Source: a virus. Taken from it: a stretch of 47,004 nucleotides of DNA. Shown in pieces: positions 2,939-29,926 of the stretch (positions are counted from its first letter, which is position 1; every line of letters begins with the position of its first letter). The position numbers were made by a program, and so were the translations under genes. Below the pieces are notes generated by a model, which saw nothing but the letters and a program-made list of their open reading frames with translations, ran no database searches and was not told where the DNA came from. Location of the stretch: IMG/VR virus record IMGVR_UViG_3300009550_000023, positions 1 to 47,004 of that record. One strand, 5' to 3'.

Positions 2939-3356
2939 ATTGATTATGTCTCCTATGCGCCATTTTCTTTTCCCAATCTTTTATAGCAGTTTGGATAGTT
3001 TCTTCGGCTAATACAGAACAATGTAATTTTATAGGAGGTAATTCTAAAGCTTCAGCTATTTCTTTATCTTTAATAAGTTTAGCTTCTTCTAAGGTTTTAC
3101 CTTTTAACATCTCAACAAACATAGTGGATGAGGCAATTGCAGAACCACATCCATACGTTTTAAATTTAACATCTAATATTTCGTCAGTGTCTGGATTTAA
3201 TTTCAAATCTAACTTCATAACGTCCCCGCATGCGGGTGCACCTGCGAGACCAGTCACGACGTTGGGGTCTTTCGGATCGAATCTTCCAACCCCATGTTTG
3301 GCGGGGTTTTTTAATACATCCTCAAATCGGTCTACTACTTTACTTGAGTAGGCCAT
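2922..3356 (-). CDS. iscU: IscU-type Fe-S cluster scaffold protein
   Basis: IscU is the scaffold on which IscS builds [2Fe-2S] clusters. All ligand residues are present: Cys43 with Asp45 (PACGDVM), Cys70 (YGCGSAIASS), His112 and Cys113 (LHCSVLAE), plus the LPPIK chaperone-recognition motif at 106-110. Length (144 aa) is slightly more than E. coli IscU (128 aa), because of a C-terminal extension of about 15 residues. It sits directly upstream of, and overlaps, the A-type carrier. The phage lacks a visible cysteine desulfurase here, so it would depend on host IscS or SufS. Identification is firm; the benefit to the phage is unknown. Confidence 0.93.
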   Translation of the reverse strand: MAYSSKVVDRFEDVLKNPAKHGVGRFDPKDPNVVTGLAGAPACGDVMKLDLKLNPDTDEILDVKFKTYGCGSAIASSTMFVEMLKGKTLEEAKLIKDKEIAEALELPPIKLHCSVLAEETIQTAIKDWEKKMAHRRHNQYGTDE

Positions 3357-6625: not shown

Positions 6626-6749
6626 ACTTATCGTTTAAATATTTTAATAGTTCATATATACCCCAACCAATTACAGCCCATAATGCAATATTAAATGCAA
6701 CATAAGCAAAATTGAGTGGGAACCAAAATAGATTTGTTAAAAATTCCAT
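6615..6749 (-). CDS. 44-residue membrane protein
   Basis: Its ATG overlaps the stop of the HAD gene (TAATG), and its end overlaps the next gene by 11 bases. The sequence (MEFLTNLFWFPLNFAYV, then IALWAVIGWGIYELL) is almost wholly hydrophobic with a charged tail, so it is a membrane peptide with one or two helices. Function unknown. Confidence 0.55.
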   Translation of the reverse strand: MEFLTNLFWFPLNFAYVAFNIALWAVIGWGIYELLKYLNDKYAN

Positions 6750-7354
6750 TATATTTTTTTCACCTTTCCTGTTTTGTTAACTAAAAATGCTTCAAAACTG
6801 ACATGTGGAAATTCTCTCTTTAGTTCTAATAAAGCAGTTAAATTTTCCATGTGGTCATCAAATAATCTTATACGTGCATACTTTTCTGTTTGTAAATATT
6901 TTCTAAATATTATTTGTTTAGCTGCCGCACTGGATTTATTTGACATATTACCAGCTCTTTCAACATATACCTTATCCATTGGAATACCATTCTCTTCAAA
7001 TGTTCTAATGAATAAATCTCTATCATCCATATCAGCTCTAGCCGTTACGATTATTACTTTACTTCCTGCTCTTGTTGCATTCTTAATAATAGCTTTTGCT
7101 TTATTAATCATTCTACCAATTGGTATAGCAGTTTTATAAAAAATCTTTGATGATTTAAATTGGCCATAATCATAATACTCACCTTTTTTTAATTTATACT
7201 TATTAAATTCTTTAGGTGTTAAAATTTTTACAACCTTATTTCCACTCTTAACTTGAACCTTAGCATCTGTTGTAAACATAGTATCATCAATATCAAAGAT
7301 AGTTAAACCTTTGTTTGATTCCGCTAAGTATTGTTCGAAGTTAATTGCTTCCAT
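6749..7354 (-). CDS. HAD-superfamily phosphatase with a capsid-targeting-like N-terminus
   Basis: HAD enzymes hydrolyse phosphate monoesters through an Asp nucleophile. Motif I is FDIDDTMF at about residues 19-26, and motif II is VTARAD; the late acidic pair is in LFDDHMEN. Length is 201 aa. The first residues MEAINFEQYLAES match the pattern M-x2-4-F/Y-x-x-Y/F-I/L-x-E of T4 capsid-targeting sequences, with LAE as a possible gp21 protease site. Transcription probably starts at the promoter 7363-7391, whose -10 box ends only 8 bases before the ATG. Substrate unknown; nucleotide or RNA-end phosphatase are possible. Confidence 0.75.
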   Translation of the reverse strand: MEAINFEQYLAESNKGLTIFDIDDTMFTTDAKVQVKSGNKVVKILTPKEFNKYKLKKGEYYDYGQFKSSKIFYKTAIPIGRMINKAKAIIKNATRAGSKVIIVTARADMDDRDLFIRTFEENGIPMDKVYVERAGNMSNKSSAAAKQIIFRKYLQTEKYARIRLFDDHMENLTALLELKREFPHVSFEAFLVNKTGKVKKI

Positions 7355-12040: not shown

Positions 12041-12270
12041 ACTCTACGTATTCCTCTTGACCATTCTTCTAATTCTGTATAACCACCCACTCTTTCGCCA
12101 TTTACTTTTATTTGTGGAAAAGTTCTAGCTGTTGGAAATTTTTCAAACAATTCTTCTCTTGTAAAATCTACACCTAATTGTTTGTACACATATTCATAAT
12201 CCTTTTGTTCACATAAAGCTTTTGCTCTATCACAATAAGGACACATTGGTTTTCCATATATCTCTATCAT
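12037..12270 (-). CDS. Glutaredoxin
   Basis: Glutaredoxins reduce disulfides and supply electrons to ribonucleotide reductase. The dithiol active site is Cys10-Pro-Tyr-Cys13; the cis-Pro motif TFPQIKVNG and the glutathione-site GGYTEL follow at the expected places. Length is 77 aa, as for T4 thioredoxin/glutaredoxin-type proteins. It is in one operon with nrdA and nrdB, with the cytochrome gene in between, and its start overlaps the cytochrome stop by 4 bases. Confidence 0.92.
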   Translation of the reverse strand: MIEIYGKPMCPYCDRAKALCEQKDYEYVYKQLGVDFTREELFEKFPTARTFPQIKVNGERVGGYTELEEWSRGIRRV

Positions 12271-12710
12271 TTCATTGTCTCCTCAATAAATTTCCCTATA
12301 GTATCTATATCGCTATCTGATAACATTCCTGCTTGAGCCCACATTGTTGAACTCATCGAACCTACTTCTTCCCTATTTTTGTACGCATATAACTTTTCAG
12401 AAATATACGATGCATCTCTTCCGGCAAGTTTGGGAAAGACTGCCATTCCTTGACCTTCTTGTCCGTGACACGCTGCGCATCCTGCCCAAAGTCCTTTAAT
12501 GGAACTATAAGGATCTGCGTTGGCAATTTCTTTTTTCCTTTGTTCAATCTCAACAACCGTGCCATTGATTTTAACATATTCTTCATAACATTCTCCATAA
12601 CATGAGTGGCCTCCACCAACTCCAGTATATTCTAAATTTGGATATACTTTAGCGGCAAAAAATAATCCTATTGCCATACATCCCATTAATACCATTCCTA
12701 ATTCTTTCAT
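12267..12710 (-). CDS. Membrane-anchored c-type cytochrome
   Basis: The 147-residue protein starts with a hydrophobic export/anchor segment (residues about 4-21), then a periplasmic part. The heme c attachment motif is Cys78-Ala-Ala-Cys81-His82 (CAACHG), followed by PKLAGRDASYI and a C-terminal LSDSDIDTIGKFIEE helix, as in cytochrome c4/c5/c553-type domains. Met119, Met123 or Met129 could be the distal ligand. An extra Cys37-x3-Cys41 pair lies before the domain. Heme attachment would need the host Ccm system. It sits between nrdB and glutaredoxin with coding overlaps on both sides, so it is not a stray insertion. Electron transfer to a host oxidase is inferred. Confidence 0.88.
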   Translation of the reverse strand: MKELGMVLMGCMAIGLFFAAKVYPNLEYTGVGGGHSCYGECYEEYVKINGTVVEIEQRKKEIANADPYSSIKGLWAGCAACHGQEGQGMAVFPKLAGRDASYISEKLYAYKNREEVGSMSSTMWAQAGMLSDSDIDTIGKFIEETMK

Positions 12711-17222: not shown

Positions 17223-17473
17223 TATTCGTCCTCAATCCTATATCTTAAACCATTCATACCTTTTATATGAATAGTTCTTTTATCATTTGTTCTAAATTTT
17301 AATTCCTTAAAATTTGCCTTGATTATTTTTCTTACGTGATTCCATTCTTGGTCATCTTCATTTCCCCATTGTGAATCATAGGAAACAACAATAGTATATC
17401 GTTTTTGGAATAAATTGATTAACCACCACCAAAAGGCTTTGGTGTATTTAAGTATTATTTTTAAGTGCTTCAC
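17222..17473 (-). CDS. Small conserved protein with N-terminal membrane helix
   Basis: The 83-residue protein has a hydrophobic, Trp-rich start (YTKAFWWWLINLF) and a soluble part (IVVSYDSQWGNEDDQEWNHV, then KELKFRTNDKRTIHIKG). I recall YDxQWGN-type proteins in T4-like cyanophages, without function. It is coupled to the spanin candidate by a TAATG junction. Confidence 0.65.
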   Translation of the reverse strand: MKHLKIILKYTKAFWWWLINLFQKRYTIVVSYDSQWGNEDDQEWNHVRKIIKANFKELKFRTNDKRTIHIKGMNGLRYRIEDE

Positions 17474-17681
17474 GTGCTTGTCTTCTCTTGAGGATACGTT
17501 CTACAAATTTTCTACCCTCTTTTGTTCGACCATCATATACTGATTTCTTTACTCGGTCCTTATGTTTTTTATGTTTATCTTTAGGCATCATATCTGATGG
17601 CATTGATACACCACCATGAGCTACAGCATTTGCGGCTGCATCTTCCCATTGTTGTTGATAATCTTTAAAACTTCTTCTCAT
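17448..17681 (-). CDS. Small basic protein, weak capsid-targeting-like start
   Basis: The 77-residue protein starts MRRSFKDYQQQWEDA, close to but less exact than the M..F..Y motif of the genes between 18.6 and 29.9 kb. The rest is Lys/Arg/His-rich (KDKHKKHKDRVKKSVYDGR), consistent with a DNA-associated internal protein. It overlaps both neighbours. Function unknown. Confidence 0.6.
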   Translation of the reverse strand: MRRSFKDYQQQWEDAAANAVAHGGVSMPSDMMPKDKHKKHKDRVKKSVYDGRTKEGRKFVERILKRRQAREALKNNT

Positions 17682-18262
17682 CTAGTAATATCCTGATTTG
17701 ATATATAAATCATTTGTCCTGTCGGAATATGTTTTACTTCATATATATTTATACCATTTATAACTTCATGTGGTATAAGAAAATCTTCTATTTTTATTTT
17801 AGTACGAGCCATAGCAATCATTTCTTTATTTTTATTATCTAAATGGTCGTTTATTAACATATATGTTCCAGGCATTAGTTCATCATCTCTCATAAACCAA
17901 TTACTTTCATATATATCAACTGGGTCAAATTCATATCCTAAAGCTTCTTCAATTACTTCTTTAATTTTTTTATCCGACATTCCAGTATGTTCTTTAATAA
18001 GCAACATTGCAGCTGCATAAGAACCTACAGTTGATTTACCACCTGGTACTTTTCTTATTAATCTTTTAATATTAAAAACTATTCTATGAAATATTGTATA
18101 GTTTTCTTTTTGAATTTTTGTTCTTTCTTTTGCAGGTATTAATATTGAATAGTTCTTATCTATTACACCTTGTTTAAATGCACCAGTTTTTTCAACTGGC
18201 ATAGTAAGTAAACGTAAGAATCTTACTGCGTATCCAAAATCTGCTAGTGCTGAAAATCCCAT
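17678..18262 (-). CDS. Conserved marine phage protein of unknown function
   Basis: The 194-residue protein contains LRLLTMPVEKTGAFKQGVID and TIFHRIVFNIKRLIRKVPGG; from memory, the FHRLxFNLKRxL block recurs in T4-like cyanophage and other marine phage proteins. The second half (YAAAMLLIKEHTGMSDKKI) is globular and acidic. It has no targeting-like start. It overlaps its neighbours by 4 and 1 bases. Confidence 0.65.
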   Translation of the reverse strand: MGFSALADFGYAVRFLRLLTMPVEKTGAFKQGVIDKNYSILIPAKERTKIQKENYTIFHRIVFNIKRLIRKVPGGKSTVGSYAAAMLLIKEHTGMSDKKIKEVIEEALGYEFDPVDIYESNWFMRDDELMPGTYMLINDHLDNKNKEMIAMARTKIKIEDFLIPHEVINGINIYEVKHIPTGQMIYISNQDITR

Positions 18263-18633
18263 TATAGTTTTCTTAATACCTCTACAATATATGGGTCCAT
18301 ACCCACTTCTACTTTTTCTTCTTCAGGTAAATAATGTAAGTATACTAAGAACGGTTTTATATAATGCCAATGTTCTTCGTTGATTTTAAACCACATCATT
18401 TTATTGCATGGTTTAATTCCAAAAACATTATATAGAACTATTATATGATTTAGTATAAGCCTTTCCTGTAAATCACCTGTTAGCTCATACCGTTTTAATA
18501 ATCTTTTAAGATACTTAAACCTATTTAAATCCTGTTTAAACTCTTCTACATCTAAACACTCTGGATTATTATAATAGTGTGCTGCAAAGAGTTTAAAATT
18601 TCTATGTGTCAATTCATCAAATACTTTCATCAT
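18262..18633 (-). CDS. Conserved phage protein (DUF7207-like)
   Basis: The 123-residue protein has the block RLILNHIIVLYNVFGIKPCNKMMW when read in parts (LNHIIVLYNVFG, KPCNKMMWFKI), which I recall as widespread in T4-like phages with no known role (DUF7207 type). It is rich in Tyr, His and Leu and probably all-helical. A 28-base AT-rich gap separates it from the cassette upstream. Confidence 0.65.
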   Translation of the reverse strand: MMKVFDELTHRNFKLFAAHYYNNPECLDVEEFKQDLNRFKYLKRLLKRYELTGDLQERLILNHIIVLYNVFGIKPCNKMMWFKINEEHWHYIKPFLVYLHYLPEEEKVEVGMDPYIVEVLRKL

Positions 18634-18661
18634 ATATTATATATACTCAAACAATATATGT

Positions 18662-19186
18662 TTAATATCGTATATTTGTATATTTGCCTGTTGTATCTAG
18701 AAAAAACTCGGTTGATTTGTTCAAGAATGTCACTTCCCATTTATCGTCAGAACTAATAAAACAATAATCTATTATACCTTTGTTCTTTCCTTCGATGACT
18801 TCCCATAACCAGCATGTCCAGCCTGGTTTAAATTTTTTATCTTCTTGACTTATTAAATTAAAAAAGTGATTCATCTTATCTAAAGAATTCCAATATTGTC
18901 CATATCTAAAGTCGTCAGCTTTCCAAATTGTATTATACTTCTTTTGTACATCTTTGTAATCACTACCAACGATATGTCTTTTATTAGCATTTTTCCCATA
19001 AGGAACTATTCCTACACCTAAGACCTTAACTTTTCCACCATAAACATCTTCATCTTTAATGCCATAATTTCTAGCTGAACGTCCAGCATGTATAACATTT
19101 ACTTTTAAATTAGGCTTAAGTTTTGACATAGTCACTTTACCTTCAGATAAAATTCTTTGTTCTTCTCTAAATTCAAAATAATTCAT
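18662..19186 (-). CDS. Unknown protein with capsid-targeting-like N-terminus
   Basis: The 174-residue protein starts MNYFEFREEQRILSEG: aromatic residues at positions 3, 4 and 6 and an ILSE site at 12-15 that fits the T4 gp21 cleavage rule (Ile/Leu-x-Glu). The rest (VYGGKVKVLGVGIVPYG, PGWTCWLWEVIEG) is globular and unknown. It is the last gene of a run of similar-start genes. Packaging in the capsid is inferred. Confidence 0.6.
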   Translation of the reverse strand: MNYFEFREEQRILSEGKVTMSKLKPNLKVNVIHAGRSARNYGIKDEDVYGGKVKVLGVGIVPYGKNANKRHIVGSDYKDVQKKYNTIWKADDFRYGQYWNSLDKMNHFFNLISQEDKKFKPGWTCWLWEVIEGKNKGIIDYCFISSDDKWEVTFLNKSTEFFLDTTGKYTNIRY

Positions 19187-19197
19187 TTTATTCTCCG

Positions 19198-19695
19198 TTA
19201 ATTGCTTACGATTCTTCTTCCTTTGTTAGGGTTTTCTCCGCCGTAATTTGCTTGAAAGTCTGTTCTTGGGAAGTTAGCAAATGATTTTAATTTGCCTAAC
19301 TCAATTACCATATCATCGAGATTAATATCCTTTTCTTCTTTACCACTTGGTAATTTTGGATTCTTACCAGAAAAGCCTGGATATATATTTATGCAAAAAT
19401 CTCTATCGCCTTCACCTATCTTAAATTTTTGTTTCTTAGCAATATCCGCTGGTCCATTAAGAACTTCTTCTTCTTTATATCGCATTCCTTGTTTTTTAAG
19501 ATGTTTTTCTACTATCTTTAATCCCTTTCTAATATCGTTCCAAACTTGTGGTGTATCATTATCAGGATGCATTGATTGCACATTCATTTTAAAATAACCT
19601 TCAAATCCAACGATATGATAATAATCAAATGGTGGCTTAGGTAATTTAAACTTTTCTTGTATATCTACAATCTTTTTAAATTGAAAATAATCCAT
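19198..19695 (-). CDS. Unknown protein with targeting-like N-terminus
   Basis: The 165-residue protein starts MDYFQFKKIVDIQEKF, which fits the M-x-x-F-x-F pattern but has no good Ile/Leu-x-Glu site. It contains DYYHIVGFEGYFKMNV and DFCINIYPGFSG. No family recognised. It starts at a TAATG overlap with the upstream gene. Confidence 0.6.
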   Translation of the reverse strand: MDYFQFKKIVDIQEKFKLPKPPFDYYHIVGFEGYFKMNVQSMHPDNDTPQVWNDIRKGLKIVEKHLKKQGMRYKEEEVLNGPADIAKKQKFKIGEGDRDFCINIYPGFSGKNPKLPSGKEEKDINLDDMVIELGKLKSFANFPRTDFQANYGGENPNKGRRIVSN

Positions 19696-20489
19696 TAGTC
19701 TGCCTCGTTATCGCTTTTATAATTTTTATCTACGTAATTAAAGAATTCTTTCTTCTTCTCACCATCTAATTCAGCCGGTGATTTAACTCCAAATTTCTTA
19801 AGAGCTTTATCAAAAAAAGCTTGATATTTTTTTTGCTTCTCAGATTCTTCTCTCTCAATAGCTTTTTCTTCTTTATCAGCTTCGTCATGGTTATCTTTAG
19901 CTTCGAATAACTCAGGGAATACATCTTCAATATCACCATCATCCATACCATACATCTCTGGGTCTTGTAAGAATGCTAATACATTTTTCTTTTCCCCTTT
20001 AAGGTCAGCTGTTTGGTTTGATGTAGGTTTAATATCTACTTTATATTTTCTCTTAGCGTCAGCTCTGAGTTTATTGTCGCCGATAAAATCTATATCTAGA
20101 GCAGTTTTACCTCGACCTGGTTTCTTTTTTAAGCGTTCGTTTATTACCGCCTCATCTATTTGAACTTCAACTTCTTCTTTAGCTACAGTGCCATCTGGTC
20201 TTTCACCTGATTTTTTAACACCATGTCTTTTCTTAAAGTTTAGTTCGCCTTCTTTAGAACCTGTTTGACCGGTAGGTACTTTTGGTTCTTCTACTTCTGC
20301 TACTACTATATTTAATTTGGTTTCTTGATTAGCAACTACGTATTTATTAGCTGCTTCTTTATTAGGAAAGCCTTTTACAACTTTACCGTCTTCATCAACC
20401 ACGTTAAATTTAACTGGAGCAGGTTTTCCTTCCATAACATTCTTAACAGAATTTGCTATGTCCAGAGTTATGTCGTCATTAAAATTCAT
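19695..20489 (-). CDS. Acidic phage head-associated protein candidate
   Basis: The 264-residue protein is very rich in Lys and Glu. Its N-terminal part (LDIANSVKNVMEGKPAPVKF, then DEDGKVVKGFPNKEAANKYV) and C-terminal block (YQAFFDKALKKFGVKSPAEL, then KKKEFFNYVDKNY) recur, from memory, in proteins of T4-like marine phages next to virion internal genes. The charged low-complexity middle resembles scaffold or internal core proteins. Exact role unknown. Confidence 0.6.
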   Translation of the reverse strand: MNFNDDITLDIANSVKNVMEGKPAPVKFNVVDEDGKVVKGFPNKEAANKYVVANQETKLNIVVAEVEEPKVPTGQTGSKEGELNFKKRHGVKKSGERPDGTVAKEEVEVQIDEAVINERLKKKPGRGKTALDIDFIGDNKLRADAKRKYKVDIKPTSNQTADLKGEKKNVLAFLQDPEMYGMDDGDIEDVFPELFEAKDNHDEADKEEKAIEREESEKQKKYQAFFDKALKKFGVKSPAELDGEKKKEFFNYVDKNYKSDNEAD

Positions 20490-20500
20490 TTTTATTTCTC

Positions 20501-20821
20501 CTAAAAATTAGCGTTGTGGACTATAAATTCCCACGTTATGGCTGATATTAACCCAACCACTATAACCCAAACAATTTTATTTATTAGGTTAACTGTTGAA
20601 CTGTTTTGGGTGACCATGTTCTCAACCTTGTCTATTCTATTTATAAGATTTTGTATTTGTTCAGACTGCTGTTTGCTGAATGCTGTAAGAGTATGTATCT
20701 TTTCTTCAGCTCTCGCAAGAGCTATAACTGCATCTGCTAAGTTATCTAACTTTTCTTCAATACGGTCCAACCTTTGGGCTTGTACTGTATATACTTGTTT
20801 CATTTCTCTATCGTCTGGCAT
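20501..20821 (-). CDS. Coiled-coil protein with C-terminal membrane anchor
   Basis: The 106-residue protein has a long coiled coil (RLDRIEEKLDNLADAVIALA onward) and one TM helix near the end (IVWVIVVGLISAITW). This XhlA-like or DUF7201-like layout is common in T4-like cyanophages. Possible roles include holin accessory or membrane tether; no proof. Confidence 0.65.
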   Translation of the reverse strand: MPDDREMKQVYTVQAQRLDRIEEKLDNLADAVIALARAEEKIHTLTAFSKQQSEQIQNLINRIDKVENMVTQNSSTVNLINKIVWVIVVGLISAITWEFIVHNANF

Positions 20822-21084
20822 TTTACAATCCTACATTTTAGAATATTATAACCTTTTATTAATCTATGGTATTCACCTTCCGGTATATCGAACACCATCC
20901 CCTTTTTTAAATGATAAGGCATACAATTTTCATATTGAAATTGCCATCCCTCACCTTCCAAAACTTCTATTTCTCTATCTTCCATATCACGATGCCAAAC
21001 ATATTCAGCATCATCCCGAGTCGGGTCAAACTCTCTTATATCGCCGTCTTCCCAGTACGGCTTACCAAAAGTAATTTCCACCAC
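20800..21084 (-). CDS. Cupin-like small protein
   Basis: The 94-residue protein has a single-barrel cupin-like pattern: WHRDMEDREIEVLEGEGWQF, then MPYHLKKGMVFDIPEGEYHRL, with His and Glu residues placed as in metal-binding cupins (H.......E, later H). The end KCRIVKC is a final strand. It overlaps both neighbours. Enzymatic role unknown. Confidence 0.6.
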   Translation of the reverse strand: MVEITFGKPYWEDGDIREFDPTRDDAEYVWHRDMEDREIEVLEGEGWQFQYENCMPYHLKKGMVFDIPEGEYHRLIKGYNILKCRIVKCQTIEK

Positions 21085-21451
21085 CCTTTAATCCTAATTC
21101 TTTTGCGTATTGTGGTAATCTACAGCTCCAGTATCCAGCTTTTGTTTTATCTTTCTTCATATCACAATTATGACGTGAAGCAAAATTCCTTGCTGCATCT
21201 CTATCACCGATATCTGATTTTAATCCACCCTTAACATCACCAAATTCTATTTTGATAACATTACCTGTATCTGGTTTCTTTACATATACCACATACTTTT
21301 TATCTCCACCACTACGACTTGGTTTATTTAATTCAACTTCTCTACCTTGATATTTAGCTTCAACCATAGGTTGTTCTAAAGGAACCCATGCACCTTCAAA
21401 TAATCCAAATCTTTCGTCTGAAAATTTAGCCACCGAACTCATGACCTGCAA
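21062..21451 (-). CDS. DUF5872-like internal virion protein
   Basis: The 129-residue protein contains LNKPSRSGGDKKYVVYVKKP, VIKIEFGDV, AARNFASRHNCDMKKDKT and AGYWSCRLP, the blocks of a small domain (DUF5872, from memory) found in many T4-like and related phages, usually in multi-domain virion or head-associated proteins. The two conserved Cys residues (HNCD, SCR) are present. Start is uncertain: ATG at 21451 or 21442, or GTG at 21433. Confidence 0.7.
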   Translation of the reverse strand: MQVMSSVAKFSDERFGLFEGAWVPLEQPMVEAKYQGREVELNKPSRSGGDKKYVVYVKKPDTGNVIKIEFGDVKGGLKSDIGDRDAARNFASRHNCDMKKDKTKAGYWSCRLPQYAKELGLKGGGNYFW

Positions 21452-22193
21452 CCCTCTTCATTTGTTTAGTATATTCTTGATAACTTGGTTTAGTTTTATA
21501 TAACTTAATTGAAATCTCATTTCTTTCTTTACCTTTGATTCTCCAATTATAACCTTTTTCTTTATGTTCTGGTTTAGTTGTTTTTACAACTCTTCTCTTA
21601 TATCCAGCTTCCCATGATTCACCTTTGTTAGGTCCATCACCTTCTTCAACTGATTCTTTGAAAGGTACTCTCTTAATTTGCTTAGGTGCTATGTCTTGAC
21701 CTTCATCTTCTTTACTAAAATCTCTTACTTTATCACTAGCCTTTAATACTTTATCCATGTATTCTTTAGCATCATTCATTGCATATTTTTTCAATTCGGC
21801 TGTTGACATGGTACCAGTTGAATCTACCATATATACTTGAAAGGTATCATCTGGGTTAACATTTCTAGCATCCCCTACTTGTTTATGCCCAGCTTGTGCT
21901 AATACATATTTACCATCTGTATAATAAATGTAATCTTCATGATAACCATCAACTACACCATGAACTACAACTGGTTTTCCAACCTGGTGAAACTTCATAG
22001 GATTGCCACCTAATGTTTTACGTACACTTTGTGATTTCATTAGCTTATCACCAATAGCACTTTCATTTACATCCACTGATTCAATTGGTACACAGTTAGG
22101 AACTCTTTTACCATTTTTCATTTTGGTTCCAACTTGTTTATACCCTGTCCAACATGGACCTTTTTCTAAAATATATTCTCTAAAATTTTTCAT
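21426..22193 (-). CDS. Targeting-signal protein with CWxGYKQVG domain
   Basis: The start chosen is MKNFREYILEKG, because it matches the capsid-targeting pattern with ILE as a gp21-type site; the frame opens five codons earlier. Directly behind is PCWTGYKQVGTKMKNGKRVP followed by NCVP, a well-known short domain of phage virion proteins (CW..YKQVG.K.K.GK.VPNCVP). Internal ESVDVNES and ESVEEG motifs recur as in the 690-residue protein. The C-terminus contains a KSYQEYTKQ-like helix. Probably an internal capsid protein; biochemical role unknown. Confidence 0.65.
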   Translation of the reverse strand: MKNFREYILEKGPCWTGYKQVGTKMKNGKRVPNCVPIESVDVNESAIGDKLMKSQSVRKTLGGNPMKFHQVGKPVVVHGVVDGYHEDYIYYTDGKYVLAQAGHKQVGDARNVNPDDTFQVYMVDSTGTMSTAELKKYAMNDAKEYMDKVLKASDKVRDFSKEDEGQDIAPKQIKRVPFKESVEEGDGPNKGESWEAGYKRRVVKTTKPEHKEKGYNWRIKGKERNEISIKLYKTKPSYQEYTKQMKRVAGHEFGG

Positions 22194-22432
22194 TTCTTTA
22201 ATACCCACAAATAACTTTTACCCTTTGTTTGAGCCTTCTTAGTTATACCATATCCAGCCATGGCTGCTAGTGTTTGCATTTTAGGCCAAGACTTTTCAAA
22301 TCTTTTTTTAAGTTTTTCTCTAGATATATCATCTTTTATTTTAGTAAGAATAGTATCTAATATGTTTAAATCACTAGCTACTAGTTTCTCATCAACCTGT
22401 GTAGATTCTCTAAACTCTTTAAATGTTTTCAT
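22190..22432 (-). CDS. Small protein with T4-IPIII-like capsid-targeting sequence
   Basis: The 80-residue protein starts MKTFKEFRESTQVDEK; T4 internal protein III starts MKTYQEFIAE. The rest is basic and helical (ILTKIKDDISREKLKKRFEK), like T4 internal proteins. The first 40 bases are almost identical to those of the next gene upstream (one mismatch). Predicted to be packaged in the prohead and injected with the DNA. Confidence 0.65.
   Translation of the reverse strand: MKTFKEFRESTQVDEKLVASDLNILDTILTKIKDDISREKLKKRFEKSWPKMQTLAAMAGYGITKKAQTKGKSYLWVLKK
22393..22432. repeat. 40-base direct repeat, copy 1, encoding the targeting sequence
   Basis: This stretch encodes MKTFKEFRESTQV and matches 22617-22656 at 39 of 40 bases. 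The two genes diverge completely after it, so only the signal part is shared. Confidence 0.85.
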
Positions 22433-22656
22433 TATACTCTTAGTTTACCTATATTGTTCTTAAAAAACTGTTGTAATTTTTTAAAATCATTCTTTTTCAT
22501 AAGAATATCACCGTCACTAATATTCACCGACAACCTAGGATTCCACTCTAAACGCATCATACCATTTTTGAGTTCTACCACTTTGTAGTCTGTATCAGAA
22601 GCTAGGGTTTTATTTTCAACCTGTGCAGATTCTCTAAACTCTTTAAATGTTTTCAT
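22432..22656 (-). CDS. Small protein with the same targeting sequence as its neighbour
   Basis: The 74-residue protein starts MKTFKEFRESAQVENK, the same leader as the gene at 22190-22432, but the body is different (VELKNGMMRLEWNPRLSV, then GDILMKKNDFKKLQQFF). This is what is expected when a targeting peptide is moved onto new cargo. Body family unknown. Confidence 0.65.
   Translation of the reverse strand: MKTFKEFRESAQVENKTLASDTDYKVVELKNGMMRLEWNPRLSVNISDGDILMKKNDFKKLQQFFKNNIGKLRV
22617..22656. repeat. 40-base direct repeat, copy 2, encoding the targeting sequence
   Basis: Second copy of the repeat at 22393-22432, with one base difference (Thr to Ala codon region unaffected by the rest). Confidence 0.85.
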
Positions 22657-22658
22657 TT

Positions 22659-23105
22659 TTATTTAAATGTTGCTACTTTATGTTTCTTTAAGAAATCTTT
22701 GTATTTTTTACTTGCAGCTTTAAAAAGTTTACCTCTTCTCTCGTATTCTTTTCTTTGAGAACTTCCTTCTTTACCCATAGGTACAAACACGCCATCCCAT
22801 GTTCTATCATAGTCTTTTTTCAAATCTAAGATTTGTTGTTGAATCTTATCGGGAAGTTTTCGTGCTTTTTCTATATCAACCATTCCTTCATCAAGTATAG
22901 AATTAGTCACACTTTCTTTTACATCTTCATACATAGGTGCTAAAGCTTCAACTACTTTACCTATTATAAAAGGGTCTATAGAAGCAATCATATCAGCTTC
23001 TGCTCTTTTTAAATTTTTAATACCCTTGATTTTATTATAGATATTTGTATATCTAACTTCATTCACAACTTGTGTGTATGCTTGTTTCCATGTTTTATAT
23101 GTCAT
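22659..23105 (-). CDS. Basic helical protein with targeting-like start
   Basis: The 148-residue protein starts MTYKTWKQAYTQVVNEV, with aromatic residues at positions 3, 6 and 10 and a possible site VNE. The body is helical and Lys-rich (KIKGIKNLKRAEADMIAS, KEYERRGKLFKAASKKYKDF). An internal ESVTNSILDEG resembles the ESV-x-E motifs of the 690-residue protein. Probably an internal head protein; function unknown. Confidence 0.6.
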   Translation of the reverse strand: MTYKTWKQAYTQVVNEVRYTNIYNKIKGIKNLKRAEADMIASIDPFIIGKVVEALAPMYEDVKESVTNSILDEGMVDIEKARKLPDKIQQQILDLKKDYDRTWDGVFVPMGKEGSSQRKEYERRGKLFKAASKKYKDFLKKHKVATFK

Positions 23106-23113
23106 TTTATCTC

Positions 23114-23386
23114 CTATTTTAGTGGCTTAGCATCTTTCATTGCTCTCATGGCTTCATTTTTAAGTAAGCCATAAGTTAATGTTAACCATCTTATTAAAGC
23201 TGGTTTAGTGCCTGCTATTGTCATTTCATATTTTCTTTTATTCCAATCATGTACAAAGACACCTTCATTTTCCCACTCATCTGCTCCTTGGTCATTTGGA
23301 TTTCCATGTTCCCAATCTATTGTAAGCATAAAAGCTCTAGCTTTATCTAATTTAAACTCTTTTAAATGTTCTTTAAAGGTTAACAT
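23114..23386 (-). CDS. Small protein with targeting-like start
   Basis: The 90-residue protein starts MLTFKEHLKEFKLDK, with LKE as a possible gp21 site. The rest (AFMLTIDWEHGNPNDQGADE, then VHDWNKRKYEMTIAG) is globular and not recognised. It touches the 690-residue gene end to start. Confidence 0.6.
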   Translation of the reverse strand: MLTFKEHLKEFKLDKARAFMLTIDWEHGNPNDQGADEWENEGVFVHDWNKRKYEMTIAGTKPALIRWLTLTYGLLKNEAMRAMKDAKPLK

Positions 23387-25458
23387 TATTCGTATCCTCT
23401 TCCTTTTACGAAATCTTCTAGGTTATCTTCTAACCATTCAAGCCATAAGTCTGGATCGTCATGTGGTATTTCTTCTGGATAATTATCCATAACATATAGT
23501 ATTAAATCTTCTTCGGCTTTATCAGATAATTCGAAACTATTTGATGAAGGACTTATAACTTTTCTCAATTCCCTACCATGCTTACGCATTATATCTCGTC
23601 TTTTCATCGTACGAACTTCTTTAAAAGTTTTCTTACCTTCAAATGTTTTCTTACCTTCAAATCTAGGTGCTTTCATTCTTTTACCTACCATAATACCAGC
23701 TTTAGTCCTTATATGTTTTTCAATAATTTTTGATTCACTAATTTTTCCGTACATATGTTGTGCAGAGCTCCATATTTCTTCTCTTGTCATAGTATCACCA
23801 AAGCCTAACCTTCTTGGGAATTTAACAGCTTTTCTATCACCAACCTTTTGGCCTTCTAAGTATCTACCTACTGCTACAAACATTTCATCTGGTCCTACTT
23901 CTTTAGCTGGGCTTAGTGAATCGATTCCATTTTTCTTTATATCTTTCATAAAGTCGTTCAGCATTTCATTATACTTCATATTTTCTTTTTCATTCTTAGA
24001 AATAAATGCAAAGTAATAATCGCCATCTCTGACAGGATAGCTTAAAGCTATCCAAGCCTTTGGCCTTGCTGAATTACCTGGGTGGTAATCATTTAATTTC
24101 ATCTCTGCTCTTGCTTTATCTAAATCACCATAAAAAGCTTTTTGTTTTTCTATACTACCAAATGATTTAAATTCTTTATCTACATCTTTATCATTAAATC
24201 TTCTAGAATAAGCTTCATAAAGAACTGATTCTTTCATAGCAATTGACATTTGAGATTTAAATTCTTGCATCTTCTTAGCATCACCTACTATTTTTAGATG
24301 ATTCTCATCTCTTGTTATCTCAACACCAACATCTTTTGCTATTTTAGATAGTTTATTAAATGTAGTTGAACTAGTATCAGATACTTTTAACTCAGATGTA
24401 TCAGCTTCAGGTAATTTCTTTTTATTTTTTACTGTAGTATGACCATATTCTTTAATCTTATTTCTAAAATCAGATAATTTCATTTTATATTCTAATTCTT
24501 TTAGTTTAAGATTTACTTTATCAAGTTTTCCTTCGGTGACTGATTCATTTGTTCCATAATATCCTGCATCCTGTATTCTAGTTAATACACCTTCTTTACG
24601 AGATACTGAAACATGATTTCTCATACCAAATTCATCAATTGCTGTTAACATAGCATTTAAACCTTTATCAATATTTAGTTTTCCGCCATAGTTGCTAATT
24701 GAAATTTCATGTGATTGTGCTAATACTTTACCACCAAATGCTTTAGCAGCTTTTTTCATATCTCCAAATAATTCTTTTGCTTCAGCTTTTGTAAGTGGAC
24801 CACTTCTAATCATATTAGTAATATTACCACCTGGTTTTACACTATTAATTAAATTTAACCAATCAGTTCTATTCTTATCTCTAGCTCTTCCATCAGGTAC
24901 TCTAATTGCTATTGAATTACAATCATCTCTTAATTCGAATTCATTATCCTTTATATCTTGATATAAATCTGAAGTTTCAATAGTTGAATGACTAGAAAGT
25001 CCTTTACCAAATTGATTAGAATTTTGTCTTTGTGGTCGATAAGTTAATTTAACTTTTTTACCAGTCATTCCATTGACACCTTCATTAACTGATTCCAATG
25101 CTTTAATTGCAGCCAATGCATCTTTCTTAGCCATCTTGAGTTCTCTATCTTTCATCTTCTCAACAGCTTTCTTAATCATTAAAAGTCTTTTCTTCTTATC
25201 AGCTGCTGATAGTCTTTCATTTACTGATTCATTCGCAAATCTTAAAGCAGCTTTAACAGCTGGATGATCGCCTAAACCTCTTTCTATCTTCTCTATTTTC
25301 TTATAGGCTCCAGTCATATTACCACCCATATCTAGAGCAATAGCTATAGCCATTTGAAGCCTCATCTTTGGAGAAGTTGGTTTTAAAACTTTACCATCCC
25401 TTGTAGTATACTCCTTGAGCCTTTGTAATCTCTTTTGTCTAATTTCTTTAAATTTCAT
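23386..25458 (-). CDS. 690-residue modular internal virion protein candidate
   Basis: This is the largest cassette member. It starts MKFKEIRQKRLQRLKEY. Several short motifs recur along the chain: ESVNERLS, ESVNEGVNG, ESVTEGK and ESVLYEA, about 45-200 residues apart, which look like module borders or protease sites. Near the C-terminus a perfect tandem duplication gives FEGKKT twice, directly followed by FKEVRTMKRRD, which resembles the MKTFKEFRES leader of the small neighbours, as if another gene had been fused on. The N-terminal block RLQMAIAIALDMGGNMTGAYKK is, from memory, common in marine phage virion proteins. No enzymatic motif recognised. Confidence 0.65.
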   Translation of the reverse strand: MKFKEIRQKRLQRLKEYTTRDGKVLKPTSPKMRLQMAIAIALDMGGNMTGAYKKIEKIERGLGDHPAVKAALRFANESVNERLSAADKKKRLLMIKKAVEKMKDRELKMAKKDALAAIKALESVNEGVNGMTGKKVKLTYRPQRQNSNQFGKGLSSHSTIETSDLYQDIKDNEFELRDDCNSIAIRVPDGRARDKNRTDWLNLINSVKPGGNITNMIRSGPLTKAEAKELFGDMKKAAKAFGGKVLAQSHEISISNYGGKLNIDKGLNAMLTAIDEFGMRNHVSVSRKEGVLTRIQDAGYYGTNESVTEGKLDKVNLKLKELEYKMKLSDFRNKIKEYGHTTVKNKKKLPEADTSELKVSDTSSTTFNKLSKIAKDVGVEITRDENHLKIVGDAKKMQEFKSQMSIAMKESVLYEAYSRRFNDKDVDKEFKSFGSIEKQKAFYGDLDKARAEMKLNDYHPGNSARPKAWIALSYPVRDGDYYFAFISKNEKENMKYNEMLNDFMKDIKKNGIDSLSPAKEVGPDEMFVAVGRYLEGQKVGDRKAVKFPRRLGFGDTMTREEIWSSAQHMYGKISESKIIEKHIRTKAGIMVGKRMKAPRFEGKKTFEGKKTFKEVRTMKRRDIMRKHGRELRKVISPSSNSFELSDKAEEDLILYVMDNYPEEIPHDDPDLWLEWLEDNLEDFVKGRGYE
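23627..23662. repeat. 18-base perfect tandem duplication
   Basis: Two identical 18-base units in the 690-residue gene encode the hexapeptide FEGKKT twice. It sits at the junction before a targeting-like FKEVR segment. Confidence 0.85.
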
Positions 25459-25460
25459 TT

Positions 25461-26837
25461 TTACCCTCTTACTTTTGCGGCTAAGTCTTTATCGGCTTTA
25501 CCCCATGTTCCTGATGATTTTGTTACGAAAGAATTAACTCTTGCTAATCCCCATTGTGTTGGATTGGTTCCAGGTCTATGTCCTGTTTTCCATGCCGCAA
25601 CACCTCTATTAAAAACTTGTTTTAGTATACCTAATGGCATACCACTTTTATCCGCTTTCTTCTTTAAGGCTGCGTCGGACCCACCTTCTTTTACCATGAA
25701 ATCTTCAAAAGTTATATGGTCAGCAAATTCGCCGAACATAGCTTTAAATTTCTTAGTATGTTTGGATGGTTTAGTCTTTGCAGTTTTATCACCAGGTGCT
25801 GGCTTATATGCTGCTGGATTATCATCATCCATCTTTGTTTGTTTATTAAATTGTGCTTGTCTTTTATCTTGTGTAGATTTACCTAAACCTTTGTGATAAG
25901 CTTTATTTCTCTTTTGAGGTTTTTTATCTTCAGTTTTAGGCTTTACTACTTGAGAGAATGGTGTATCTTTTAGATATCTATTCAGTGCTTTGCTTGTTCC
26001 GAAGTCTCCTGCTCCATGCTCCTCTACGAGTTCTACGGATTCGAGCCAATATCTTTTTCTTATGTCGTTGCTTTCCACCATTACGTAATTCGAACCGCAT
26101 ACTATGATTCTCCCTTTGTGATTATTTTCTTTAATACGAACTAGGTCGCCGACTTTAAAGAGACTTCCTTCGATATACTCTTCACGAGTTTCTGATACTG
26201 GAGGTAATTCAATATGTTGCCTAAAAGAACGTGATTCATTTAATCCCATTCCTTTTCTTACTGCGTTGAATAGACCGGAAGAATCCTTAAAGCCGGACGG
26301 TAAACCTTTTGCAAAATTTGCAAGGTCATTTTGTTGAGCGAAAGCTCTTAGTTTTGAAGCGGACATTCCAGCTGCACCTTCTGCATCTGGGTCCCTTTCA
26401 CCTGCGGATACTACTGTTATGGATTGAAAGTTATAGAAACCATGTCTACCTTTTTCACCATTGTACTTATTTAGTAAGGCGTCAAATTCAACAACTCTAT
26501 CTGAACCAACAACCATATTAATATTTACAAACCCTTGGTCATATAATTTAACAACTATATCAAATACTGTTCTTACATCCATATCTCCCATGACCGCACG
26601 CGCGTGCCTAGGAAACATTTTTCTTAAATATTTAATTTTATCTTTTGGTGAAAGTGGATTCTTTTTAGAATCTTCTGTTTTTGATGTATATATTCTATAA
26701 GCACCAGAACGTGCTTGTTTTTTTACAGCGTCAAATAGTTTTTCGTGACCAGTTGTTGGAGGATTATACCTCCCAAATGTAAATGTGACTTCTTTAGTTG
26801 ATTCAGTTAAATAGTCACTAAATGATTTAATCGTCAT
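25461..26837 (-). CDS. Targeted nucleotidyltransferase with KOW-like and DUF5824-like domains
   Basis: Order of parts in the 458 residues: (1) targeting-like leader MTIKSFSDYLTES with site LTE; (2) HIGH-type nucleotidyltransferase domain with FTFGRYNPPTTGHEKLFD and the late GMSASKLR motif (ISSTxIR equivalent), as in NMN or cytidylyl transferases; (3) an ESRSFRQHIELP linker that itself resembles a leader; (4) FKVGDLVRIKENNHKGRI, a KOW-like barrel; (5) a C-terminal block MPLGILKQVFNRGVAAWKTG and RVNSFVTKSSGTWGKAD, matching DUF5824 of phage virion proteins, from memory. It is probably carried in the head and acts early in the host. Substrate (NMN, CTP or other) unknown. Confidence 0.75.
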   Translation of the reverse strand: MTIKSFSDYLTESTKEVTFTFGRYNPPTTGHEKLFDAVKKQARSGAYRIYTSKTEDSKKNPLSPKDKIKYLRKMFPRHARAVMGDMDVRTVFDIVVKLYDQGFVNINMVVGSDRVVEFDALLNKYNGEKGRHGFYNFQSITVVSAGERDPDAEGAAGMSASKLRAFAQQNDLANFAKGLPSGFKDSSGLFNAVRKGMGLNESRSFRQHIELPPVSETREEYIEGSLFKVGDLVRIKENNHKGRIIVCGSNYVMVESNDIRKRYWLESVELVEEHGAGDFGTSKALNRYLKDTPFSQVVKPKTEDKKPQKRNKAYHKGLGKSTQDKRQAQFNKQTKMDDDNPAAYKPAPGDKTAKTKPSKHTKKFKAMFGEFADHITFEDFMVKEGGSDAALKKKADKSGMPLGILKQVFNRGVAAWKTGHRPGTNPTQWGLARVNSFVTKSSGTWGKADKDLAAKVRG

Positions 26838-26856
26838 TAGTATCCTCGGTATCCCA

Positions 26857-28098
26857 TTAGCCTGGGTTATCCCAGCCTTTTATAATATTTGGCGAAAAGT
26901 TATTTGTAGAAAATTCTAATCTATCAACTAACTTTACCGCACCACCTTCCGTACGGTCTATAGCTACAAAGCCCTCAGGGCCGGTGACTTTAAACCCGGA
27001 TTTAGTTTTAACAAACGTACCAATTTTTGATAACGTCTTTAGTTTATTTATAATAATTAGTTTTGCATCTGTGACTAAAGTGTGTAAAATAAACACTTGT
27101 GTAAGTATATCTAAATTTTTATTTGAGAAAAATTCTAATAGTTTATCCCTTTCATCTTCTTGTCTGCCTTTACCTGCTGGAGTTTTAAGTTTATCTATTT
27201 TCTTTTTATATCTTTCATTTACAAATTTAATTAAACCCCTTGCATGTTTAGCAGGGTCTCCAATTCTTTCACCTTTACGAACTACAGTATTGTTGTATAT
27301 GTTTACTACTAAATTAAGTTCTTTATTATTTTCTAATTCTTTTAATACAGGAGCTTCTACTTTTCTAAATACTACTCCAGCTTGTGATAATTTGGATGTC
27401 ACCTCAGCAGTTTCGGCTGCACTCATTACTGCTTTTCCTGATATATCTGGATAGGTTGCATCTACCATCCAAACATTTTTATTTTTTCTTAATCCTGTTG
27501 CTATTGATTTACCAAAGGATGCTTTCATATTCTCAAACTTTGTTCCAGTATATATTGTATGCCATACTATTCCTATCTTAGCTTTTGCTATTGTTTTTGC
27601 TAATGGCGTACCAAATGGAATAGCATAAACGATAGTATTAGGATGGAAAGTAATATGTCTAACTCCATTTATTTTCTCCGCTTTTAAATCGCTTGCCTCA
27701 AACATAAAGTCACCTTGTATAACACCTCTTATACCAACATCCTTTAAGTTATCAAAAGCTAATTTTAATTTTTTATTTAAATCACCTGATGTATCATCAT
27801 CTATATCTGAATGATTTTTATATACCTTAGGATTTTTTGCAAATATACCTTTTTTAGCTACAAAAAATTGACCATCACTTGGGTCAATACCTGCAAAAAC
27901 AGCGGGGGCTCCGTCCCATTTGACAGAAATGTCCACAGGTGAACTTGCATTTCCGCTCAACATATCCCTCAATGACCTTAGCGTTAGGATAGCCTGGCGA
28001 GCCCCCTTAACTCCACCGTCCAAGATTAAATCCTCAATATGTGTCATATGAGTATTCTTGGCTTCGGTTATATAGTTATGATTTTTAAAACTTATCAT
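26857..28098 (-). CDS. Ligase-like protein (DUF6267 type) with targeting sequence
   Basis: The 413-residue protein starts MISFKNHNYITEA, with ITE as gp21-type site. The motif SVKWDGAPAVFAG is a KxDG-type nucleotidyl-lysine motif of the DNA/RNA ligase superfamily, followed by GVIQGDFMFEASD (motif III/IIIa-like) and later WHTIYTG. Similar proteins in T4-like phages are annotated DUF6267, from memory. The most likely activity is ligase or other covalent nucleotidyl transfer, but the final basic motif is not clear. The leader suggests that it enters the cell with the DNA. Confidence 0.7.
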   Translation of the reverse strand: MISFKNHNYITEAKNTHMTHIEDLILDGGVKGARQAILTLRSLRDMLSGNASSPVDISVKWDGAPAVFAGIDPSDGQFFVAKKGIFAKNPKVYKNHSDIDDDTSGDLNKKLKLAFDNLKDVGIRGVIQGDFMFEASDLKAEKINGVRHITFHPNTIVYAIPFGTPLAKTIAKAKIGIVWHTIYTGTKFENMKASFGKSIATGLRKNKNVWMVDATYPDISGKAVMSAAETAEVTSKLSQAGVVFRKVEAPVLKELENNKELNLVVNIYNNTVVRKGERIGDPAKHARGLIKFVNERYKKKIDKLKTPAGKGRQEDERDKLLEFFSNKNLDILTQVFILHTLVTDAKLIIINKLKTLSKIGTFVKTKSGFKVTGPEGFVAIDRTEGGAVKLVDRLEFSTNNFSPNIIKGWDNPG

Positions 28099-28750
28099 AG
28101 TTCATAAAGTCCATAAGTTTATGTGCTAATTCAATACCTGCATCGTAATCTGATGGGTAATGTAAACCAGCTATTACTCTTCCGTATCCACAAATTTTAG
28201 CACCTCTAATTAATTCATTCTTATGCTCAGGATATTTTTTGCTATAATGTAATGCAACAACCATAGGCTGCATAGCATGTCCTGATGGATAAGCAGGTGT
28301 TTTTGCTGTTCCGGTTTTGAATCTATTTAATGTCTTATTATATAAATCTGCTACTTGATAAGGTCTTGGTCTATTAAAGTTATTTTTAAAATGACGAATA
28401 ATTGGCGAACATTGTTCTTCAATATATTCTATTACATCCTCATCATAATCTAAACTATTCTTATTTAAATGTTCTTTTATATAATATGACGCATCCTTAT
28501 CGCAATTTTCATAATCTTTTTTCTGTTGGTCTGAAGCTCCTTCAACTGCTGCAATCACTGCATCAATTTCTCTATCTTCTCTTGGAGGTGATGGTAATAT
28601 AATTCTTTGCCAGCCATCTTTCCATATTTCCATATCATCATAATCAGGTTCTTTTAAATCATCTTGGTCTCTAAATATTAAATGTTTTAAAGCACTGTCT
28701 GGTCTATCATCTAGTCTTGCTTCTCTTATAAATCCAGTAAAGTTTTTCAT
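28085..28750 (-). CDS. PAP2-family acid phosphatase with targeting sequence
   Basis: The three PAP2 motifs are complete: K-x6-RP in KNNFNRPRP, PSGH in TPAYPSGHAMQ, and R-x5-H-x3-D in GRVIAGLHYPSDYDAG. The enzyme uses a phospho-histidine intermediate to remove phosphate from lipids or small molecules. The 221-residue protein starts MKNFTGFIREARLDD, fitting the targeting pattern with IRE as site. There are no TM helices, so it is a soluble class A-type phosphatase. Injection with the DNA is inferred; the target is unknown. Confidence 0.85.
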   Translation of the reverse strand: MKNFTGFIREARLDDRPDSALKHLIFRDQDDLKEPDYDDMEIWKDGWQRIILPSPPREDREIDAVIAAVEGASDQQKKDYENCDKDASYYIKEHLNKNSLDYDEDVIEYIEEQCSPIIRHFKNNFNRPRPYQVADLYNKTLNRFKTGTAKTPAYPSGHAMQPMVVALHYSKKYPEHKNELIRGAKICGYGRVIAGLHYPSDYDAGIELAHKLMDFMNYDKF

Positions 28751-29880
28751 GAACGGTAAAACTCTTTATCGATATCAAATAAATCGCCCCAGCCATTTCT
28801 TTTCATATCATTAATATACCATTTACCATCTTCTCCTTTTAAAAAGCATGATGAGTTTTTAATATCTGATGAACCTCTTATTGATAATCCAGCTTTGATT
28901 TTCTTTGACATTTCACCAGCAGTTTTAGTACCAGCAAGTATTTGTTGTATCATATCTGGTTTCTTAGGTACATCACCACCATAGAATACGTTAGCTGCAC
29001 CTTCACCATCATTAAACTTAACACCACCTGATATTACTTCTCTCATTTGAGCAGCATTTAATGCAGGTGCAAAGTTCCATTTCTTAGCAATGAATGGACA
29101 TAATGAATGTGTATTAGTTTTAGTACCACCAATCTTTCCTGTATCTCTTAATTCTTTTAATGCTTCATTTAATAATTTAGAGGCATAAGGTTTATTGTAG
29201 ATTTGTAGAAATCTTTCAGGCAACATCCAATTTTCGAAGTAAGTAGCATTTTCAGATTTTAAACTATACTTCAATACATCTCCAAGGGTTGGTATTTTTT
29301 TATCTAATACAACAGTGACATCTGTTTTTGGATTACCCGGACCTCTCCAATTTGGTGCTCTTAATTCTACAATCCGATATTCTTTTCCTTTATAATCAAA
29401 TTGCCAATTATCACCTGAGCCTTTTATCCATGCTTCAGTAAATTGACCTTCATGGCCATGGCCAGCTTTAAAGTTTGTAAATACGTTTGGATTAATTTTA
29501 TCGTCTAGGTCAACCTGCATAGGTTCAACATTTTTACCAGATGGTTTGAGTATTTTATTTAATTTTATTAAGAAATCTTGTCCTTTATATCTACGGTATT
29601 TTGAATCTGATAAATTAACTCGAATTGCCTTAGCACCTCTTCCAACTATTTTTATATCTTTTTCTTCCCTATCTATAATCTCTAGTTTAGTTCCCTTTTT
29701 CAAGGTTTCATCCATAGGTGTGCCATCCATCTGATATAACTCAGCATCTTTTTCTAATTCAAAGATTTTATTTTTTGGTGATAGCGTTACGTACTGTTTA
29801 AAAGCGCCTAGACTTCCGGAATATTTGGTTGTTCTACCTAGTAGACTTGCTTCGTAAATATATGATTTGAATGATATCAT
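28747..29880 (-). CDS. Unknown 377-residue protein with targeting sequence
   Basis: It starts MISFKSYIYEASLLG (site IYE, cleavage before Ala), nearly the same leader as the ligase-like protein (MISFKNHNYITEA). The body has GHGHEGQFTEAWIKGSGDNW and VELRAPNWRGPGNP, a possible His/Glu-rich active site, but I cannot assign a family. It is the first gene behind the late promoter at 29919-29926, so the whole cassette appears to be late-expressed. Confidence 0.65.
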   Translation of the reverse strand: MISFKSYIYEASLLGRTTKYSGSLGAFKQYVTLSPKNKIFELEKDAELYQMDGTPMDETLKKGTKLEIIDREEKDIKIVGRGAKAIRVNLSDSKYRRYKGQDFLIKLNKILKPSGKNVEPMQVDLDDKINPNVFTNFKAGHGHEGQFTEAWIKGSGDNWQFDYKGKEYRIVELRAPNWRGPGNPKTDVTVVLDKKIPTLGDVLKYSLKSENATYFENWMLPERFLQIYNKPYASKLLNEALKELRDTGKIGGTKTNTHSLCPFIAKKWNFAPALNAAQMREVISGGVKFNDGEGAANVFYGGDVPKKPDMIQQILAGTKTAGEMSKKIKAGLSIRGSSDIKNSSCFLKGEDGKWYINDMKRNGWGDLFDIDKEFYRS

Positions 29881-29918: not shown

Positions 29919-29926
29919 TATTTATA
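29919..29926 (-). promoter_or_regulatory. T4-type late promoter ahead of the internal-protein cassette
   Basis: TATAAATA on the minus strand, 38 bases before the ATG at 29880. Internal head proteins need late expression, so the position fits. Confidence 0.6.

Follow-up and report, generated by a model that had tools for sequence, protein, structure and literature searches.

A probable late operon for internal head proteins of the T4 type, several of them enzymes, in a marine T4-like phage

The window analyzed here, the whole of IMG/VR virus record IMGVR_UViG_3300009550_000023 (47,004 nucleotides), covers part of the genome of a marine T4-like phage (a 47 kb fragment), and gp41, UvsX, gp43, NrdA and NrdB can be recognized in it; a search of phage records with it at the nucleotide level gave zero matches. 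Between gp41 and nrdA, on the minus strand, it carries a cassette of genes (17448–29880) that very probably forms a late operon for internal head proteins of the T4 type; most of them are basic, and several are enzymes. The packaging of these proteins is strongly supported by homology. Since their N-terminal leaders match the head-loading tag of T4, and tagged relatives have already been found in phage particles, the DNA of this virus is probably delivered together with a kit of enzymes made beforehand.

The leaders were noticed in a first-pass annotation, made from the sequence alone, which described about a dozen consecutive proteins beginning with the pattern M-x1-4-[FY]-x-x-[FYH]. Every N-terminus that it quoted is present in the window, on the minus strand, and the pattern is found in 11 of the 19 genes in 17448–29880 versus 1 of 57 elsewhere (Fisher p = 1.4e-7), this sole outside match being the HAD gene at 6749–7354 that had also been pointed out. 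The series is not strictly consecutive, since the genes at 17678–18633, 19695–20489 and 20501–21084 have no leader. The early I/L-x-E that had been reported for most of the leaders is absent from MKTFKEFRES, whose first seven residues equal those of the T4 internal protein IPI. The reading frame of MKNFREYILE starts at 22193, and the upstream GTG is not its start. Over the whole window the pattern has 12 matches (shuffle mean 2.65, maximum 9). Because it had been drawn from the same data, we built a strict motif, R1 (^M.{1,6}[FYW]..[FYWH][ILMVF].E), derived from T4 IPIII and the window, and used also a looser one, R3, that accepts L/I/M as well at P7 (T4 residue 4). R1 has six matches in the window, against a shuffle mean of 0.09 and a maximum of 2. 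In T4, taken as positive control, it selects 3 of 260 genes, namely those of IPII and IPIII and a small uncharacterized one at what we take to be the 61.1 position.

The cassette leaders have aromatics at the places of T4 residues 4 and 7, a feature that is weak or missing in some genes of the cassette, and a predicted I/L-x-E site for the prohead protease gp21 closes a leader of 10–20 residues. T4 IPI starts MKTFKEF and has its cut site, ITE/A, later, at residues 17–19; this form with a late cut is also seen in the MKTFKEFRES pair of the window and in the longer leaders at 23105 and 19186. The features are listed below, a slash marking the predicted cut here and throughout.

29919–29926, minus strand: T4-type late promoter TATAAATA, 39 nt 5' of the first cassette gene; conserved in relatives before the first leader gene
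28747–29880, minus strand: cargo 1, 377 residues, putative restriction-endonuclease-like protein (GNPKTD...SLK; PADLOC REase_II E = 4.5e-6, residues 160–245)
29851–29880, minus strand: leader of cargo 1, MISFKSYIYE, cut before A
28085–28750, minus strand: cargo 2, 221 residues, PAP2 phosphatase (Pfam PAP2 E = 2.8e-9); leader MKNFTGFIRE/A at 28721–28750
26857–28098, minus strand: cargo 3, 413 residues, DUF6267 (Pfam DUF6267 E = 2e-105); leader MISFKNHNYITE/A at 28063–28098
25461–26837, minus strand: cargo 4, 458 residues, fusion of an NMNAT-like cytidylyltransferase and DUF5824 (phrog_3041/395, DUF5824); leader MTIKSFSDYLTE/S at 26802–26837
25485–25901, minus strand: DUF5824 domain of cargo 4, with the internal leader-like ITFEDFMVKE/G
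23386–25458, minus strand: cargo 5, 690 residues, basic, family unassigned; weak leader MKFKEIRQKRLQRLKE, strict motif not matched
23114–23386, minus strand: cargo 6, 90 residues; leader MLTFKEHLKE/F
22659–23105, minus strand: cargo 7, 148 residues; longer leader MTYKTWKQAYTQVVNE/V
22432–22656, minus strand: cargo 8, 74 residues; leader MKTFKEFRES, 7-mer identical to T4 IPI
22190–22432, minus strand: cargo 9, 80 residues; leader MKTFKEFRES
21426–22193, minus strand: cargo 10, 255 residues; leader MKNFREYILE/K
21062–21451, minus strand: weak candidate, 129 residues; no clear leader here, 15 of 37 orthologs match
19198–19695, minus strand: cargo 11, 165 residues; leader MDYFQFKKIVDIQE/K
18662–19186, minus strand: cargo 12, 174 residues; leader MNYFEFREEQRILSE/G
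17448–17681, minus strand: weak candidate, 77 residues, MRRSFKDYQQQW; cut site looked for, none found
6749–7354, minus strand: stray cargo outside the cassette, 201 residues, HAD, polynucleotide-kinase-like (phrog_415 E = 2e-10); leader MEAINFEQYLAE/S at 7319–7354

The connection with the virion comes from T4-like cyanophages whose particles have been analyzed by mass spectrometry (MS). In S-CREM2, 52 proteins were identified in virions purified on cesium chloride (CsCl) (PMC10665884). We translated all 219 annotated proteins of this phage and scanned them with the motif; the N-termini were inspected before the test, the motif itself having been derived from T4 and the window. R1 matched five of the 219 (0.4 expected from whole-genome shuffles), and four of the five are MS-detected proteins that are not known structural parts (Fisher p = 0.0012), i.e., gp6, a SAM hydrolase (MKDFDSFLEE), gp14, a kinase (MKRFDAFLTE), gp136 (MQTFSMFFSE) and gp154, a cytidylyltransferase (MKNFSSFLTE). 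With the predicted cuts, mature gp154 would start at ADEKQQ and mature gp6 at FDRDQE. R3 adds gp13, detected, and gp175, not detected (5/7, p = 0.0005). The scan over related phages that had been proposed from the sequence thus ties the strict motif to virion detection in S-CREM2, besides recovering IPII and IPIII in T4. Published virion MS also includes relatives of cargo 4: its NMNAT-like orthologs were found in S-CREM2, S-SZBM1 (PMC9146016) and S-SCSM1 (PMC9602691), and all three are tagged (MKNFSSFLTE/A, MRFRQFIIE/A and MKSFLQFLKE/A, respectively). In S-SZBM1 the gene lies between gp41 and nrdA, as in the window; its neighbor _139 and the nearby _136 are in the MS list too, but without a leader.

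Some other sequences with leader-like N-termini turned up in the scanned genomes. The third T4 match (AF158101, L141, 18969–19130) encodes MKTFKEFIKEDMVAGDSGG..., a protein of 53 residues with a textbook capsid-targeting leader (MKTFKEFIKE/D), and by its sequence is possibly an unrecognized T4 internal protein. In S-CREM2, the MS-detected Cas9-like nuclease gp12 (L083, 7704–10313) has RFASFMAE/A at residues 18–25, slightly inside the annotated start, so that either the start may be mis-annotated or the leader may be internal. S-SZBM1_191 (OL473597, 122311–122628), a second strict match in that phage (MKSFKSFLSE/S), adjoins a virion structural gene and is absent from the published MS list; it is a candidate cargo. 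Predicted cargoes of Melnitz, a cultured Methylophilales phage, include the products of gene 15 (MQGFKTFLSE/A), gene 16, a DUF6267 protein (MINFSKYITE/D), and gene 27 (MKNFKNHIAE/E). The R1 matches in the MazG of cyanophage Syn9 and in S-CREM2 gp30 are likely false positives.

The gp21-like protease that the first-pass annotation suggested looking for is present in T4, C48C1, Melnitz, HTVC008M, S-CREM2, S-SZBM1 and IMG/VR relatives, covering the relatives with complete records and several long contigs, with conserved His and Ser motifs. The major capsid propeptides of the relatives carry the same cut motif as the leaders (FLTE/T, LLTE/A, FISE/A, MISE/T). Conservation was assessed over a sample of 80 IMG/VR loci and isolates, in which the leaders vary in sequence and length yet keep the cut: it was retained in 40 of 40 distinct leaders of DUF6267, 18 of 18 tested of PAP2 (hydrophobic-x-E cut) and 40 of 41 of NMNAT, and in three further families in 6/6, 4/4 and 7/7. 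The six distinct leaders of the cargo 7 family change in length and sequence and all keep the E at the same mature start, while the four of cargo 12 (10–15 residues) all terminate in E/G or E/A. In nine aligned orthologs of cargo 1, I8, E10 and A11 are invariant, and the HAD cargo of relatives has other leader sequences (MESFKQYIYE/G, MINFKTYLSE/A) with the motif kept. A family-weighted logo, aligned on [hydrophobic]-x-E only, gave F at P7, Y/F/H at P4, L/I at P3 and A/S/G at P1'; P7, P4 and P1' played no part in choosing the cut site. In T4, residues 4/7 and 8/10 (equal to P7/P4 and P3/P1) were tied to targeting and processing by Mullaney and Black (reviewed in PMC9026906). We also observed that in C48C1 the gene directly 5' of gp21, between it and the portal gene (L087, 1233–1430), encodes 65 residues starting MRTFKELREA, like the MKTFKEFRES of the cassette.

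The DUF6267 family exists with and without the leader. In phages of heterotrophs the protein starts MISFKNHNYITE/AKNTHMTHIED, and leaderless cyanophage orthologs start MAKNTHLEHLED, MKNTHLEHLED, MATQNKHLEHLED and similar, i.e., exactly at the predicted cut. In S-SZBM1 the leaderless DUF6267 is absent from the list of 30 MS-detected proteins in which the neighboring tagged NMNAT is present, an absence that alone is weak evidence. None of the four leaderless DUF6267 genes with an upstream gap has the late promoter.

This promoter had been claimed to precede the cassette, and TATAAATA is indeed found there, upstream of the first ATG. Its exact count in the window is that expected by chance (12 versus 11.8), so what makes it unusual is its position before leader genes and not its number. 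It also stands upstream of the leader gene that opens the operon in relatives, in five unrelated families: REase-like, L004/Melnitz type, L052 type, NMNAT (S-CREM2) and HAD (L116). We curated the counts by hand, leaving out gene-caller truncations, genes at contig edges and a duplicate contig, and compared them by Fisher test: TATAAATA stands before 16 of 20 operon-first leader genes, and of the 526 other genes that have an upstream gap it precedes 66. Late expression of the cassette is thereby predicted from sequence. All 12 exact sites in the window lie on the coding (minus) strand.

To judge from the domains, the cargo consists largely of enzymes. AlphaFold models of cargo 1 (predicted local distance difference test, pLDDT, 82) and DUF6267 (pLDDT 70), based on alignments of the window and IMG/VR rows only, gave no significant match in a fold search of the PDB, and profile searches against PDB sequences gave nothing convincing. 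Because of this, cargo 1 is called restriction-nuclease-like from its PADLOC match and motif, and DUF6267 ligase-like from motif order alone: its conserved KWDG, EGFV and VKLV are ordered like the motifs of covalent nucleotidyltransferases. The HAD protein at 6749 has its best score to polynucleotide kinase. In C48C1 the DUF5824 part of cargo 4 is encoded separately and starts with a leader of its own, MITFKKYLEE, and the fusion of the window keeps ITFEDFMVKE internally. The annotated ATG of the C48C1 cytidyltransferase (L084, 21604–23031) looks too late; an upstream GTG gives VIKNFSQYLLEEEREVYFTFGR, restoring the leader and a HIGH-like motif. The HAD cargo and 11 of the 12 cargoes numbered in the cassette have isoelectric points (pI) of 8.2–10.1; PAP2 (5.5) is the exception. 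As a reference, the median of the other window genes is 5.5 and the T4 internal proteins range between 9.0 and 9.7; across relatives the leader-bearing proteins have a median pI of 9.5 versus 6.0 for the others. NAD-restoring phage pathways are known (PMC12774641). From their domains the cargoes might, as a guess, act in NAD or nucleic-acid metabolism or in counter-defense.

Taken together, the reading of the cassette as internal head proteins is supported by the virion MS of relatives, the T4 control, the gp21 of relatives, the cut motif of the capsid propeptide, the conserved promoters and the leaderless orthologs. With the chain of events adopted from T4, the operon would be transcribed late, each precursor having a capsid-targeting leader of 10–20 residues whose aromatics at P7 and P4 (residues 4 and 7 of T4 IPIII) would dock it onto the prohead's scaffold core. 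Cleavage by gp21 behind the Glu of I/L-x-E would follow, leaving a mature protein trapped in the head with the DNA until its ejection at infection. In T4, a change of the P1 Glu to Asp leaves the protein packaged but uncut. The cargo would be largely enzymes (restriction-nuclease-like, PAP2, ligase-like DUF6267, NMNAT-like and, from a separate locus, HAD/PNK-like), plus small basic proteins. We infer docking, cleavage, injection, the roles of the cargo and its action in the first minutes of infection.

Several observations weigh against this interpretation. No gp21 was found on the window's own record, a 47 kb fragment, and we looked for MS data of its phage or of any member of the heterotroph-phage group and found none. 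The cassette proteins of 690, 77 and 129 residues have a weak leader or none, and one of 264 residues has none at all. The PAP2 cargo and several leader-bearing cyanophage cargoes are not basic, while the leaderless DUF6267 orthologs still are, so we take basicity as a tendency and have not used it as proof. Many MS-detected S-CREM2 proteins do not have the motif, which means that the leader is not the sole route into the virion. Finally, the published MS lists give proteins and not cut N-termini, and the S-CREM2 authors themselves point out that proteins of high abundance could co-purify with virions (PMC10665884).

This last point can be extended to the whole motif match of the S-CREM2 type, which would then reflect abundant late enzymes carried along in purification, the leader having some different role in late expression. 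We consider this very unlikely, since co-purification leaves unexplained why a T4-like leader is enriched among the detected non-structural proteins, why the capsid propeptide has the same cut motif and why the whole leader is lost at the cut in DUF6267. The leader might also bring the cassette proteins to a late structure of another kind (only the scaffold or core, the tail or a membrane); they would then be assembly factors that leave the head instead of injected cargo. Several T4 core proteins are likewise cut by gp21 and then leave the head, and the C48C1 gene just 5' of gp21 has a start of this kind. However, NMNAT, SAM lyase and kinase orthologs have been recovered from CsCl-purified virions, and catalytic domains would be an odd choice for scaffold parts, so this alternative seems improbable. 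As for a common origin of the N-termini, by recent duplication of one ancestral gene or recombination of start regions and with no targeting role, the presence of MKTFKEFRES on two adjacent small genes and the chaining of some cassette families in clustering are what it would predict. It is nevertheless extremely unlikely: the protein bodies span many unrelated families (PAP2, DUF6267, NMNAT, REase-like, HAD, kinase, SAM lyase), within single families the leader changes in sequence and length while aromatic positions and E cut are kept, and in S-CREM2 the presence of the motif tracks virion detection.

The T4 IPI, IPII and IPIII are the closest known counterparts of the internal head proteins proposed here, sharing leader length (10–19 residues), aromatics at positions 4 and 7, I/L-x-E, a basic mature protein, a late promoter and gp21 (here in relatives). 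T4, however, has three small internal proteins plus Alt, whereas here about a dozen tagged genes, several of them for enzymes, form one operon. No homology to the internal protein families was found among the Pfam or PHROGs matches of the mature cassette bodies, the leader alone being common to both. Alt, a virion ADP-ribosyltransferase, is a head-borne enzyme from which gp21 removes a short propeptide at the N-terminus (ITE-6), but its leader MELITELFDE departs from the aromatic pattern, and neither Pfam nor PHROGs revealed an Alt homolog among the cassette proteins. The virion proteins of T4-like cyanophages (NMNAT/cytidylyltransferase, SAM hydrolase, kinases) have the same leader type, with an orthologous NMNAT at the same genomic position; the proteomics papers, in the passages covered, describe them without mention of an address tag. 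The giant phages phiKZ and SPN3US, known for their ejection proteins, have many head proteins too, and a protease related to gp21 removes the N-terminal propeptides behind a Glu, but the cut motif is A-X-E in SPN3US and S-X-E is quoted for phiKZ. In the literature covered, which was largely without subscription papers (older cyanophage virion studies included), capsid targeting and cyanophages are joined only in a T4 review. Thus, while the T4 mechanism is known, an enzyme-rich and swappable cargo set in marine phages appears to be undescribed, an earlier mention being possible.

The window contains other genes of interest away from the cassette. CsgG and CsgF curli secretion genes are found at 529–2027; curli operons have been reported in the related methylophage Melnitz (PMC9004378). 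There is a pair of Fe-S biosynthesis genes (Fe-S_biosyn and NifU_N, 2627–3356), in a phage, and a cytochrome c domain protein (12267–12710) adjoins ribonucleotide reductase and a glutaredoxin-like gene.

Studies of the T4 tag have so far dealt mainly with a handful of small proteins of T4 itself, and here it marks a whole enzyme operon in a widespread marine phage group. The tag coincides with non-structural proteins seen in cyanophage particles, which provides a sequence rule for predicting injected proteins: unexplained proteomics lists become testable predictions, further cargo can be predicted by the tag, and conserved unknowns such as DUF6267 are suggested to act at the first moment of infection. 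More tentatively, and with rather less than even confidence, the leader may be a transferable address code in marine T4-like phages, which unrelated enzymes would gain or lose, switching between synthesis in the infected cell and injection at time zero. The shared set (NMNAT-like, ligase-like DUF6267, PAP2, PNK-like HAD and nuclease, with SAM lyase and kinases in cyanophages) might then be a pre-emptive payload for repair and counter-defense, e.g., against NAD-depleting or restriction defenses.

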